Virus record (IMG/VR): IMGVR_UViG_3300047494_000252
Span: 1-21,289 of that record
From: a virus
Direction: 5' to 3' (one strand)
DNA length: 21,289 nt
Below the pieces are notes generated by a model. The model saw only the letters and a list, made by a program, of their open reading frames with translations. It did not search any database and had not been told where the DNA came from. The position numbers and the translations under genes are program-made. This document shows positions 2,325-13,773 of the stretch, piece by piece; position 1 is the first letter of the stretch, and the number at the start of each line of letters is the position of its first letter.

Positions 2325-3488
2325 CTAGTGCATTAAGAATATCCACGCACCAGCATCGAAATGGGCGCCTGTGGCAGACAGCGAAACGGTGATGGCCGAT
2401 GATGATTTACACCTGATCGTTGCGGGCACTATCTGATACTGGCCCGCTGTGGCCATAGTCACACCGCCAGACCCGGCAGCGCTGGTGGCTACGCTCGGCA
2501 GCAGCAGCGTTACATGGGCGCCGTTCTCGTCTACATAGCTTACCTGGAAAACAACCGATGGCCCGGATGCAAGAATGGTCACATAGCCGCCTACCTGATA
2601 AGTATAGGCCGCAGCAAGGTTAGGCGTAGTATAGCCGAGTAAAGAAGGTACGGACGAAGAAAGCCCCATGACATCATTTGAGGCTACAGTTCCCATACCC
2701 ACAGCCGAAAGATTGCCTAGGTTGTCCGTTTGAACGAGACAGATGCCTTTGCCGGCTACTGCCTTCGCATTGAGCGCACTGCTGGTCAGCGTTATTTGAT
2801 TGGCGCTGCTGTTTACAGTCATTCCGGTTGTGGGATCACCGATAAAATACTGCGATGCGGCGGGATTTATATCGAGGTGTAATACGCCTGACTTCTGCAC
2901 ATTAAAATCATTTTGCTCCAGTACAGTCATATTTCCCGTTACCGTATCATTGCCGCCTGCCAGGGTGTTTATTGCCAGTGATGATATATTATCCCCGAAG
3001 AAAAAACGGTGTGCGCCGCTGTTCACGTCCAGGTAAGTTTGCGATCCATCGGCAATCTTTACATCTCCGTTATCTACTATTTTGCCGTTACCGGTCAGGT
3101 AAAAAAGCTGCTCGTCGTTATTCAGGGACAGAGCGGCGCCAGCGCCACCGATACTAAAATATTGGTCAGGCACATCTATATTCAGGTAGTTTGTACCGGT
3201 AGTGTCGTATACCCCAAAATATCCTGAAGATTGTACGGCGATGTTATCAAAAGTATCCAGGACAATATTGCCATGCCCCGGAAAGCCAAACACTACGGTA
3301 TCTGGCCTGGAAAGAAATGGCATTTTAAATGTATAATCAACGCTGGATCCGGTCGTGCGCTCTATACCTATCGCATAGCTCCCCGTATCCCATACGTTGG
3401 CCGGGGGCAGCTGGCTGAGCTTTAGCTGTGCATTACCTGTATTATGTATGGCACATAGCAATGCCAATAAACTGGTTATTTTTTTCAT
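2325..3488 (-). CDS. Fibre-like beta-rich protein with an N-terminal signal peptide
   Basis: A 387-residue protein inside the baseplate cluster. Residues 1-20 look like a classical signal peptide: MKK, a hydrophobic core ITSLLALLCAI, then HNTGNAQ with a possible cleavage after GNA. The mature part begins with KLSQLPP, an opening common in Bacteroidota phage appendage proteins. It continues as repeated short beta-strand units with NG, DG and SG turns. The last ~100 residues (from about AYTYQVGGYVTI) resemble a small beta-sandwich tip domain. This could be a fibre, or a secreted phage-encoded surface protein. The start at 3488 has an A-rich leader and no better internal ATG. A Sec signal on a virion protein would be odd; the two explanations cannot be separated from sequence alone. 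Confidence 0.83.
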   Translation of the reverse strand: MKKITSLLALLCAIHNTGNAQLKLSQLPPANVWDTGSYAIGIERTTGSSVDYTFKMPFLSRPDTVVFGFPGHGNIVLDTFDNIAVQSSGYFGVYDTTGTNYLNIDVPDQYFSIGGAGAALSLNNDEQLFYLTGNGKIVDNGDVKIADGSQTYLDVNSGAHRFFFGDNISSLAINTLAGGNDTVTGNMTVLEQNDFNVQKSGVLHLDINPAASQYFIGDPTTGMTVNSSANQITLTSSALNAKAVAGKGICLVQTDNLGNLSAVGMGTVASNDVMGLSSSVPSLLGYTTPNLAAAYTYQVGGYVTILASGPSVVFQVSYVDENGAHVTLLLPSVATSAAGSGGVTMATAGQYQIVPATIRCKSSSAITVSLSATGAHFDAGAWIFLMH

Positions 3489-3555
3489 ATTCTATCTTGT
3501 TAATATTTTAAGTTTGATTTAATCAAATGGGGTCTTCGAAAACGGAGCATTGTGA

Positions 3556-8021: not shown

Positions 8022-8057
8022 CACCTCCCTCCCCTTGGTGGAGGGCCGGGGTGGGGC
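8022..8057. repeat. GC-rich Bacteroidota-type intergenic repeat, copy A
   Basis: A 36-base element (CACCTCCCTCCCCTTGGTGG followed by AGGGCCGGGGTGGGGC) between the sheath and tube genes. It can fold on itself (CTCC...GGAG, CCCC...GGGG). Related copies lie at 10166-10200 and 16696-16731. It abuts the sheath stop codon (8057-8059). I recall such elements as abundant in Bacteroidota chromosomes, which points to host-derived sequence. Confidence 0.75.
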
Positions 8058-9415
8058 TATTGCTCAAACCCCAAAGAAATATTGATATAAGTGCTATACC
8101 CCACCGGCCGTACTTTAAGCACAATGTTCAGCGTATTGGTACTGAGTATGTTTTGACCTGGATCTATATAACAGTCCACGCCACTGCACTCGCTCTGCGC
8201 CACCATCGTATTGCTGATCTGGTTGATTACCTGCTGCTGCAGGTACTTGGCAAATCCGGGATCAATAGTGCCATCCACAGCCGTTGGTATTTCATCATCC
8301 ACTTCCTGTATATAAGTAGCATAGGCAAGTATCTGCGCTTTGTCTATCACGCGGCCACGCGCCAGCATACAATAGTCGTCAGTAGTGGCCGTCAGCATAG
8401 GATCTCCGCTAAAGAAAAACCCGCTCACATTCGCATACTGGGTAAACGTGATAAATCCCTTACCCGCTATCGTTACATTATCATATCCCGTGCCCGCGTA
8501 TGCGCTGGTATGCAGGTATACGCTTGTATTTGTAAGCGCACCATCCTTCACGCGGCTTATCTTCCGCTGCACCGGTATTGATGCTATCTTGCCCAGCAGC
8601 AGCCCTATCGCCGCACTCGAATAAGTAGCATTGTAGCTGAGCGTATCACCTATCAGTATTGCCGAGCGGTTATTGGTTGTGCCGCTGTTCACCGTAGTCA
8701 GTGCCGACGCAGTGCCACTATAGCTGCTACCTCCAATTATCGCTCTGAATGGCCACTGCTGGGCAAAGTAAGACTGCGCCGTCACCGCTATATTGCTGGC
8801 CGCAGTATACACATCAGCATTCAGTCCGTTGCTTATCGTCACCGTGCCGCCCGCAGTGTGCACCGCTGCGTCATCAGCGAGAATGCCCAAGACTTTTATA
8901 GCTCCTTGTGCAAAATTCAGCAACGCCACCGCGCCATTTGCATTCGTATTCAGCGCCATCTGCGCAACTGTCATAGAAGGCGGCACCAGCATCAGGTATA
9001 GCGTAGCGCCATTGCCCACCTCGTTATAATACTCAGTTACATGCCGGTATGCAAATGGATTCCCCGTCTGACTGATCCCAGCCGCAGTCAGGCTCGGGAG
9101 CCCGGTCACAAGTATTGGCGTCCCCGCCACATACCCTCCGGATTCCGATGTACCGGTAAGCACCAGGCCCATCACCCCGTCGTTCGTCTGCAAGGTCCCG
9201 CCAAGCTGTCCGTTAGTCAGTGTCACACTCACACCCCCGTTTTGCTGCACATTCCACGATCCACTCTTTCTCTTTACCGATGTGCTCGCAACTATCGCCA
9301 CCAGCAATGCAACAGCAGCCGAAAACTGCAACCAAATATTTTCCGCCCCCAGTGTCGGGGCCATCAGCAGCACGCCGATACTTAGCAAAATGAACTTCCA
9401 GATTCTGTATCTCAT
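8057..9415 (-). CDS. Contractile tail sheath protein (DUF2586-like) with N-terminal membrane hairpin
   Basis: A 452-residue sheath protein. The family-like part starts at about residue 63 with GVSVTLTNGQLGGTLQTNDG followed by VMGLVLTGTSESGGYV. This matches the usual N-terminus of DUF2586 sheaths, which normally begins within a few residues of this strand. It continues with NPFAYRHVTEYYNEVGNGATLYLMLV (about 113-138), a VLGILADD strand and the C-terminal domain ending VLKVRPVGYSTYINISLGFEQ, typical of sheath C-termini. Residues 1-57 are extra: two hydrophobic segments (about 5-24 and 27-45) flanked by basic residues (MRYRIWK; SVKRKS). No internal ATG lies between residues 18 and 81, so the extension cannot easily be a start-site error. 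The next gene downstream encodes the tube. Confidence 0.88.
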   Translation of the reverse strand: MRYRIWKFILLSIGVLLMAPTLGAENIWLQFSAAVALLVAIVASTSVKRKSGSWNVQQNGGVSVTLTNGQLGGTLQTNDGVMGLVLTGTSESGGYVAGTPILVTGLPSLTAAGISQTGNPFAYRHVTEYYNEVGNGATLYLMLVPPSMTVAQMALNTNANGAVALLNFAQGAIKVLGILADDAAVHTAGGTVTISNGLNADVYTAASNIAVTAQSYFAQQWPFRAIIGGSSYSGTASALTTVNSGTTNNRSAILIGDTLSYNATYSSAAIGLLLGKIASIPVQRKISRVKDGALTNTSVYLHTSAYAGTGYDNVTIAGKGFITFTQYANVSGFFFSGDPMLTATTDDYCMLARGRVIDKAQILAYATYIQEVDDEIPTAVDGTIDPGFAKYLQQQVINQISNTMVAQSECSGVDCYIDPGQNILSTNTLNIVLKVRPVGYSTYINISLGFEQ

Positions 9416-9513
9416 AAATTTTATTTTTTGTTTTTAAGCTGCATTAATTCTATCAGGCATCGTTGCGTCGCACGTTTCGTCACCCTTGCCCGCTTCTGCC
9501 TTTTCCGTATTGA

Positions 9514-11602: not shown

Positions 11603-12724
11603 TTAGTCTGCCGTTTGCACAATAGCTACGATGCCATTGTTGTCGGCCCGGCGCCTCATACCACCCATGCGCAGCAGCATGCTGTAGATATCGCCATAGT
11701 ACAGCGGATCATTCAGGCGCTGGTACATCTTCCTTTCACCCAGTGCCCTGGTCACCGCATTCTGATGATAGCACAGGCACGCAACATTATCCGTAGGGCC
11801 CACCGCAGTAAGGAAGTCATTCGCCGTCACAAGCCCACCTGTCAGTGCATTCTGCACAGTGCCTGTTGTGCTGCGCTCTATGATATGAAAGCCATACAGC
11901 TGTCCTATAGATCCTGTTTGCTCATCGTATGCGCGGGAAAAATCACGGTATTGGGTGATGCTCAGGCTGCTCACCAGCTGCTGCAGCAGATCACTCTGTA
12001 TGATGGCAAATCTTCCGGTTGCAGGCACATTCTGTTTGTTCAGTGCCAGTCGTGCATTTTGCAGGTCTTCTGCTACCATCGCCAGCCGGTTGCCGCTCTG
12101 CCCGCCTATATTAGCTGCTGTTGCAGCCCCGCTCGTCTGTATCAGGCTTGTGCTCGGTAGCCCGTTTAGCCATTTGTAGATGATGTCATCGGCCACGCTC
12201 TGTATCAGTATACCGTAATGGTCTTCTATAATGCTGGCGATCTTGTCATAGCTGATCTGCAGCAGGTCCACATCTGGTATATTCGTTGGCTGGGTGGTGT
12301 AGGTATCCAGGTTATAGGTAATGTCGGTATCCGTCCTTTGCACTGCAACTTGTGGATACGAGCTGTTATTCTTCATGACCACAGATTGTGTTCCCGGCTG
12401 TGGTATATGCACTATTTTGCCGCCCACCACATACTGGTCATCGCTCCATGCATACTCCAGGAACATATTATTTTTCCACAGTCGTTCTATGATATAATTC
12501 ACCCACTGTTCCACGGCCACATTTGCCTTGTACATTTTATGCTCATCATGCTCACGGCTGTCCTTTCTCATCTTGGAGATCATTGCCATTACCACCGTCG
12601 CCGCCAGAAAAAATAATTCCGCCACAACTGCCGATACACCCATTGCCGCAGCTTCGCTGCCCATCATTCCCGCGATCACACACCACATCAGGAAACTCAT
12701 TAAAATTGAAATCGATTTTTTCAT
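11603..12724 (-). CDS. Major capsid protein with N-terminal membrane hairpin
   Basis: A 373-residue putative major capsid protein of the HK97/Mu gpT type. The C-terminal half shows the familiar order: a long helix (VAEDLQNARLALNKQNVPATGRFAIIQSDLLQQL, residues 217-250), a strand GSIGQLYGFHIIERS (271-285), AVGPTDNVACLCYHQNAV (307-324), ALGERKMYQRLNDPLYYGD and a last strand GIVAIVQTAD. It follows the protease/scaffold gene, as expected. Residues 1-52 are unusual: two hydrophobic segments (about 4-21 and 28-50) with basic flanks (MKK; SKMRKDSREH). An internal ATG at 12535 (residue 64, MYKANVAVEQW) follows ATAAA and could be the true or a second start. The start at 12724 also has a good A-rich leader, so both forms are possible. 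Confidence 0.87.
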   Translation of the reverse strand: MKKSISILMSFLMWCVIAGMMGSEAAAMGVSAVVAELFFLAATVVMAMISKMRKDSREHDEHKMYKANVAVEQWVNYIIERLWKNNMFLEYAWSDDQYVVGGKIVHIPQPGTQSVVMKNNSSYPQVAVQRTDTDITYNLDTYTTQPTNIPDVDLLQISYDKIASIIEDHYGILIQSVADDIIYKWLNGLPSTSLIQTSGAATAANIGGQSGNRLAMVAEDLQNARLALNKQNVPATGRFAIIQSDLLQQLVSSLSITQYRDFSRAYDEQTGSIGQLYGFHIIERSTTGTVQNALTGGLVTANDFLTAVGPTDNVACLCYHQNAVTRALGERKMYQRLNDPLYYGDIYSMLLRMGGMRRRADNNGIVAIVQTAD

Positions 12725-12798: not shown

Positions 12799-13284
12799 TT
12801 ATTTAGGCTCTACACCAAATTTTTCTTTATACAGTTGCTTATACCTCGCCGGAAATTTCTCCCGCACCGTTGCCAGCCTGCCATCTTTATGCAGCTCGTC
12901 AAATGTTTTGTCCGCAAGCGCCAGCGGAAACTCGCCATCCACCAGCCGGTCCGTAAGCGACTCATAACGGGGCATATCACTGATCAGCTCAGCCAGCTCC
13001 TGTGGCCTGCCGGCAAACTGTTGTTCCAGCCGGTCCCTGGTCGCTTTGTTATAGCGGCCATCGCTAAGTCCGGCGTCCAGCATCGTTTTTATCCTTTCTC
13101 CGGCAGCATGGTTGCGCTCTGCTTTCAGATTTTGTTCCGCCGCATCCTTTGCAGCGCTCAGCCGGCCGTTCTCGCCATGCAGATTATTGATTCCCTGCAC
13201 CACGGCTTCCGCCGTTGCCTTTTCATCGCTGAGATTCAGCAGTCCCATCAGTTGGGGCGTCAGTTCTAAAGTGATTTTTTTCAT
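12799..13284 (-). CDS. Probable internally started scaffold protein
   Basis: Within the protease gene, the ATG at 13284 is preceded by AATAAATATAAA, an AT-rich stretch unlike the surrounding coding sequence but just like the leaders before real start codons in this window. Starting here gives a 161-residue scaffold (MKKITLELTPQLMGLL...) without the protease. Separate in-frame scaffold products are known from Mu (gpI/gpZ) and lambda (C/Nu3). Not proven from sequence. Confidence 0.55.
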   Translation of the reverse strand: MKKITLELTPQLMGLLNLSDEKATAEAVVQGINNLHGENGRLSAAKDAAEQNLKAERNHAAGERIKTMLDAGLSDGRYNKATRDRLEQQFAGRPQELAELISDMPRYESLTDRLVDGEFPLALADKTFDELHKDGRLATVREKFPARYKQLYKEKFGVEPK

Positions 13285-13773
13285 TTTATATTTATTAAAG
13301 ATTAGATCCTTAAGGTTAAGCTCATTGTCGTCGCCATCACACAGCTGCAGCTCCACTTTCATTGCGTTTCTGTTACCGGGATTGTCCACCAGGCTGCATT
13401 CTTTATTATACCACCTGGTCACTACAATCACAGGATTTTCAGGGTCTGTCTCATTATCCTCCAGGTGATAGTCAAGGATGCATAGCTTGCCAAAGCTCGC
13501 CGCGTTCAGGAATCCTTCATTGATCTCGGCGATCGTCCTTTGCGCACGGCCATGCTCCATATTTATTACTGGCTTACCGGTCACCTGGTCGCCGCTCACG
13601 GCCACGTCTTCCCACCGCAGCAGCACCCCATCCTCATACCGGTGCATATAATAGCCTATAGGATTTTTGAGGAACTCATCTATATCATAGCCGCTGGTCA
13701 TCAGCCGCATGCCGTACTTGTTTATACTGCTGTCACTCAGTACAAAGTCTTTCTCTATTTTCTCAAATGCCAT
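12799..13773 (-). CDS. Prohead protease fused to scaffold (S78-like)
   Basis: A 324-residue head maturation protein. The N-terminal ~135 residues follow the HK97-type prohead protease plan. NPIGYYMHRYEDGVLLRWEDV holds the likely catalytic His44, GFLNAASFG the likely Ser93, and KECSLVDNPGNRNAM matches the closing 'EISLVDxPxNxxA' motif. After a linker, residues 163-324 (from MKKITLELTPQLMGLLNLSDE) form a helical, charged scaffold domain with coiled-coil potential. The frame is open upstream to 13824, but the ATG at 13773 has the better AATATACGAAT leader and the expected protease N-terminus. It is the first gene of the leftward operon, directly upstream of the capsid gene. Confidence 0.87.
   Translation of the reverse strand: MAFEKIEKDFVLSDSSINKYGMRLMTSGYDIDEFLKNPIGYYMHRYEDGVLLRWEDVAVSGDQVTGKPVINMEHGRAQRTIAEINEGFLNAASFGKLCILDYHLEDNETDPENPVIVVTRWYNKECSLVDNPGNRNAMKVELQLCDGDDNELNLKDLIFNKYKMKKITLELTPQLMGLLNLSDEKATAEAVVQGINNLHGENGRLSAAKDAAEQNLKAERNHAAGERIKTMLDAGLSDGRYNKATRDRLEQQFAGRPQELAELISDMPRYESLTDRLVDGEFPLALADKTFDELHKDGRLATVREKFPARYKQLYKEKFGVEPK

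Follow-up and report, generated by a model that had tools for sequence, protein, structure and literature searches.

The tail sheath protein of a Mu-like myophage carries, ahead of its family body, an N-terminal leader predicted to form a two-helix membrane hairpin, and the phage's major capsid protein (MCP) has a leader of similar design as well. We propose, with moderate confidence, that both proteins are made as precursors tethered to the inner membrane, with the body on the cytoplasmic side, and that the leader is probably cut away either ahead of assembly or in its course. The window, that is, the whole stretch of DNA analysed here, is a 21.3-kb viral record from which the host genome is absent. 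Judged by its gene content, which includes a Mu-type portal, a DUF2586 sheath, a baseplate hub, a terminase and a Mu I-like protease (Pfam, PHROG), the phage is a Mu-like Bacteroidota myophage. The coordinates of the features discussed below are collected in Table 1.

Table 1. Features of the sheath and capsid genes and of their leaders in the window
Feature	Position	Strand	Basis
DUF2586 tail sheath protein of 452 aa, membrane-hairpin leader included	8057..9415	-	Pfam PF10758; contractile-sheath fold
Sheath leader, residues 1-55: M R.. TM1 - GAEN loop - TM2 - KRK	9251..9415	-	Two hydrophobic segments; AlphaFold2
Predicted helix 1 of the sheath leader, residues 2-17	9365..9412	-	AlphaFold2
Predicted helix 2 of the sheath leader, residues 27-44	9284..9337	-	AlphaFold2
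Basic patch KRK behind helix 2, residues 48-50	9266..9274	-	Sequence; positive-inside statistics (74 leaders)
Low-confidence linker, residues 46-71, spanning the conserved family start GVSVTLTNGQLG	9203..9280	-	AlphaFold2
GTG codon 56, sole alternative start at the family-like position, judged unused	9248..9250	-	Weak A context; L145
A-rich translation-initiation region of the leader ATG, AAAAACAAAAAATAAAATTT	9416..9435	-	75% A in 20 nt
HK97-fold major capsid protein of 373 aa, likewise with a membrane-hairpin leader at the N-terminus	11603..12724	-	PHROG; Foldseek
MCP leader, residues 1-66, predicted helices 2-27 and 32-60	12527..12724	-	AlphaFold2; hydrophobicity; same kind in about 70 distinct MCP relatives
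Head maturation protease/scaffold (Mu I-like), candidate MCP-leader protease	12799..13773	-	Weak matches to Mu-like_Pro (Pfam) and to head maturation protease (PHROG)

The sheath ORF matched PF10758 with an E value of 3e-46 and 158.7 bits (cut-off, 26.4), the match beginning at residue 60, as does that to the PHROG tail sheath, and the body within the DUF2586 family thus comprises residues 60-452. The modelled body aligned with the sheaths of pyocin R2 and phages at a VIA-align Z of about 24, identifying a contractile-sheath fold; residue 77 of the model corresponds to residue 22 of the pyocin R2 sheath in this structure alignment, and the leader lies in front of the position matched by the first residues of solved sheaths. 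The window MCP matched phrog_267 (major head protein) with an E value of 3e-31 and, by Foldseek, phage capsids with an E value of 1e-14. NCBIfam gave no match for the window sheath or MCP. By sequence and fold alike, the sheath body falls within DUF2586, and the MCP belongs to the capsid proteins of the HK97 fold; the leaders are additions to known families rather than a new family of virion proteins. Their unusual side is their placement and how frequently they occur.

Before the sheath homology lie 55 to 59 extra residues, basic at both ends. The preliminary description had reported here two hydrophobic segments joined by a GAEN loop between basic ends, and this anatomy is borne out, the family match beginning only behind it; membrane segments are predicted at residues 5 to 23 and 27 to 45, both of which pass the 19-residue Kyte-Doolittle criterion (1.82 and 2.01, respectively). 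In the AlphaFold2 model of the sheath, the helices of the hairpin are followed by a low-confidence linker and then by a confident body, and in the model of the MCP a hairpin is likewise followed by a low-confidence linker. Searched alone against Pfam, the leaders matched no convincing family (best E about 0.01, below the cut-offs).

A rival reading is that the annotation is an artefact, with translation starting at GTG56 and the hairpin lying outside the sheath, or with the gene giving two products. The window sheath has ATG codons at positions 1, 18 and 82, in agreement with the earlier statement that none lies between residues 18 and 81; a GTG overlooked at that stage, at codon 56, sits exactly on the family-like start, and in the phages L013 and L159, whose sheaths also have a leader, ATG47 and ATG50 lie at the family start. 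The start contexts point the other way. The 20 nt upstream contain 75% A at ATG1 of the window, an A-rich context typical of Bacteroidota starts, and 35% at GTG56, the internal candidates of the three phages have only 25 to 35%, and the starts of leaderless sheaths have a mean of 52%, although the contrast is small in L013 (30% at the internal site versus 35% at the leader ATG). In L145, the fourth phage with a sheath leader, translation could not begin internally at the family position, since residues 43 to 55 include no ATG, GTG or TTG codon, and no stop codon separates leader and body in any of the four phages. The start contexts and the lack of an equivalent codon in L145 speak strongly against initiation at GTG56; the non-ATG start near residue 57 that had been named as a possible objection has a candidate codon that shows no start signal and is not conserved. 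In the MCP genes the comparison is unambiguous: upstream A content is 54% at leader starts and 51% at leaderless starts, compared with 21% where a Met is kept at the ancestral start, and such a Met is retained, devoid of a start signal, in 31 of 72 leader-bearing MCPs (e.g., L225, L238, L246 and L007). An artefact of annotation is hardly credible on these grounds, and the sheath leader is, from the sequence context, most probably translated. When genomes are annotated, such N-termini should be left untrimmed and not be classed as signal peptides.

That the MCP of the same operon has the same unusual design had been remarked before, and it does; the remark was too narrow, however, as MCP leaders recur across Bacteroidota phages, from which we gathered 72 distinct examples. 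MCPs of the same family that have no leader start at MA(I/L)xxEIW, and leader-bearing and leaderless proteins align from the same residue, where the leaders end. An MCP tree of 94 rows (56 with a leader and 38 without) shows eight changes. Among cultured phages, FPSV-S1, lotta8-1, pippi8-1 and Peternella have the MCP leader (pippi8-1, FPSV-S1 and Peternella belonging to the Winoviridae), with helix 2 weak in Peternella, while the MCPs of the Elizabethkingia TCUEAP3 and P. gingivalis phages have none. In close pairs, the pN/pS of the leader is about 0.2 to 0.3, above that of the body and well below 1, and by this measure the MCP leaders are under purifying selection. The leader does not block virion formation, since leader-bearing pippi8-1 makes normal myovirus heads and tails (PMC7077304).

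Two side observations concern the capsid region. L080 and L090 have N-termini strongly resembling MCP leaders and were missed by the search with the window MCP; they are perhaps further diverged capsid proteins. Directly behind the MCP in L145, L159 and L202 lies a gene (L145:4852-5370) whose product there has a signal peptide; its homologs in L202, L159, L164 and L162 bring it to five phages, all with an MCP leader (5/5), the only kind in which it was seen, and the window has no homolog.

The sheath leader is a rare and patchy case, and MCP leaders are recurrent in Bacteroidota phages. Single-protein scans of viral contigs with the window sheath or MCP gave no matches, and alignment queries were needed to find relatives. 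The sheath set comprised 52 loci from genomes plus more than 200 from viral or annotated sequences, and about 220 N-termini, not fully deduplicated, could be read from it. Only those of the window, L145, L013 and L159 have the hairpin; the others begin directly at the family position. The check proposed earlier, whether DUF2586 relatives share the extension, has a divided outcome, three other phages having a leader and the rest of the about 220 N-termini having none. In L145, L013 and L159 the leader is in frame and uninterrupted by a stop, and the bodies are 54 to 60% identical to that of the window; this recurrence, together with the MCP design in about 70 distinct sequences, upholds the view that the design is more than chance. 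On the sheath tree, the window and L145 are sisters, L013 is nearby and adjoins a leaderless phage, and L159 stands apart, a distribution that requires at least three gains or losses. The order to which G002 (L015, Flavipsychrobacter) belongs was surveyed in 398 genomes; 24 have the sheath, with no leader among the N-termini read.

Since the sheath leader is absent from 46 of the 49 contigs that have both genes and a leader on the MCP, it must be dispensable in general. The MCP leader, for its part, is present in 3/3 contigs with a sheath leader versus 46/109 without, an association that is suggestive and concerns three contigs only. Among the recognisable structural ORFs of the window, L145, L159 and L013, the hairpin is restricted to the MCP and sheath, and the tube, hub, protease and portal show none. 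Elsewhere in the tail module of the window, a gene of unknown family (2325-3488, minus strand) encodes a plain Sec signal peptide, MKKITSLLALLCAIHNTGNAQ, at its start. Genes laid out in the same way, with a signal peptide, occupy the same place in L145 (15348-17321) and L164, and no equivalent is found at that place in L011, L064, L143 and L026.

The leaders of the two proteins may be related. A profile of MCP leaders scored the four sheath leaders at 10 to 21 bits, each above all 500 shuffles, and among 153 control two-segment N-termini those scoring as high numbered 1, 1, 7 and 10; the best-scoring control itself resembles a capsid leader. In pairwise comparison the sheath leaders are most alike among themselves, and the sheath leader of L145 bears a strong likeness to the MCP leader of L065 (Z, 6.7). 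From these comparisons, a common origin with exchange between both genes is likely but not proven. The window sheath leader is the weakest case for this kinship (10.2 bits, equalled by 10 of the 153 control ORFs).

The membrane topology of the leaders can be read from their charge distribution. Two segments are found in 64 of 76 leaders, and the first 10 residues have a net positive charge in 75 of 76. In 74 leaders taken together, the inter-helix loop contains 11 K/R residues compared with 48 expected from an even spread over the loop and post-helix residues, and none of 2,000 simulations was as low, while the region behind helix 2 is rich in K/R. Two hydrophobic helices, basic flanks and a K/R-poor loop are the marks of an N-in/C-in hairpin, and since the loop is poor and the region behind helix 2 rich in K/R, the leaders would form a membrane hairpin with both ends cytoplasmic. 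Insertion of the leaders into the membrane is, as a prediction, well supported, and the charge bias and basic flanks favour the earlier placement of the sheath body in the cytoplasm by the positive-inside rule.

Two other readings of the leader bear on this topology. If the first segment were a Sec signal peptide, the protein would be partly exported, or helix 1 would be cut off by signal peptidase. Some leaders do resemble a signal peptide (FASPAFA in lotta8-1 and pippi8-1), and the tail-module gene at 2325-3488 of the window has a plain one. No AxA motif is conserved, however (a small-x-small site after helix 1 can be picked out by eye in some MCP leaders and is not conserved over the set), helix 2 and the basic residues behind it should hold the body in the cytoplasm, and exporting a sheath would bring no obvious benefit, which makes this reading very improbable. 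Alternatively, the leader could act as a hydrophobic scaffold or a propeptide of the delta-domain kind in prohead and tail assembly, away from the membrane. N-terminal MCP propeptides of similar length are known (HK97 delta domain, T4 gp23 leader), and the leaders evolve faster than the bodies, as would suit such a role. We nevertheless regard it as decidedly unlikely, as the positive-inside bias over 74 leaders and a hydrophobicity at membrane level are unexpected for a soluble scaffold, and tail sheaths assemble without a prohead.

A tethered precursor would work as follows: (i) translation from the upstream ATG would yield a two-helix hairpin leader on the sheath and on the MCP; (ii) the hairpin would insert in the inner membrane with both ends cytoplasmic; (iii) the folded virion domain would hang on the cytoplasmic face of that membrane; (iv) the tether may concentrate the self-polymerising sheath and MCP at the membrane and hold back premature assembly; and (v) the leader would probably be cut off before or during assembly, giving a mature N-terminus as in leaderless relatives. 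Because capsid and sheath proteins polymerise by themselves, a tether would set the place and time of polymerisation. Assembly at the membrane and a removable leader had been put forward as alternatives; both can be true, and the sequence results do not separate them.

Removal of the leader is likely. Leaderless MCPs begin where the leaders end, and a phage with a leader-bearing MCP has ordinary virions. The N-terminal arm of solved sheaths connects neighbouring subunits. The sheath leader joins directly to this arm, and the sheath core of N- and C-terminal parts lies close to the tube (PMC9230969). These sheath features speak against a hairpin that stays on the mature particle and has a role there, such as contacting the host membrane at infection or binding the sheath to other parts; moreover, with membrane hairpins exposed by the hundred on each virion, aggregation of the particles would be expected. 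In favour of retention, no cleavage site is proven, and the linker predicted to be disordered at residues 46 to 71 could let the hairpin hang off; on balance we consider retention unlikely.

For the tethered MCP precursor, a candidate for the enzyme that clips the leader is the head maturation protease. This protease varies among leader phages, being Mu I-like in the window and ClpP-like by sequence in L145 (L145:2318-2986 and 2983-3495). The junction of leader and body is conserved, with a small residue followed by V/I..E.W in the MCPs and GG or QG before V in the sheaths, a pattern for which conservation of the body accounts just as well; at the MCP junctions, no common cleavage motif could be convincingly separated from the conservation of the body. 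Tethered assembly, leader removal, the role of the protease and the benefit to the phage are what we infer from these observations.

In textbooks, the capsid and sheath proteins of tailed phages are soluble. A wider and doubtful possibility is that the inner membrane is the building site of the virions in an entire lineage of Bacteroidota tailed phages, with the MCP, and in some phages also the sheath, anchored there, polymerising from a membrane-bound pool and released by cleavage. If true, virion building at the inner membrane would give tailed phages a second mode of morphogenesis. A recurrent and selected MCP leader, with a similar type on some sheaths, would mean that virion assembly in this large group proceeds at least in part via the membrane. 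The open papers searched describe no membrane leader for a phage capsid or sheath protein, and the existence of cultured phages with MCP leaders makes the question open to direct test.

Several known systems invite comparison. The window sheath shares its body family and contractile-sheath fold with DUF2586 (PF10758) sheaths but has an extra two-helix leader, a part missing from about 220 related N-termini, which begin directly at the family position. A basic start and a hydrophobic helix are common to the leaders and to Sec signal peptides or signal anchors, whereas the leaders have two helices returning to the cytoplasm and no conserved signal-peptidase site. The HK97 delta domain and the T4 gp23 leader likewise place about 50 to 65 residues ahead of the mature capsid protein; here, in contrast, the added part is a hydrophobic positive-inside hairpin, and a similar type is found on a tail protein as well. 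T4 head morphogenesis begins at the cytoplasmic face of the inner membrane and involves the gp20 portal, gp40 and YidC (PMC9958956, PMC4493910), a precedent for the assembly proposed for the window sheath and MCP. In T4, the membrane-bound part is the portal, which has no recognisable transmembrane sequence, whereas in the window phage the MCP and sheath themselves carry the predicted helices.
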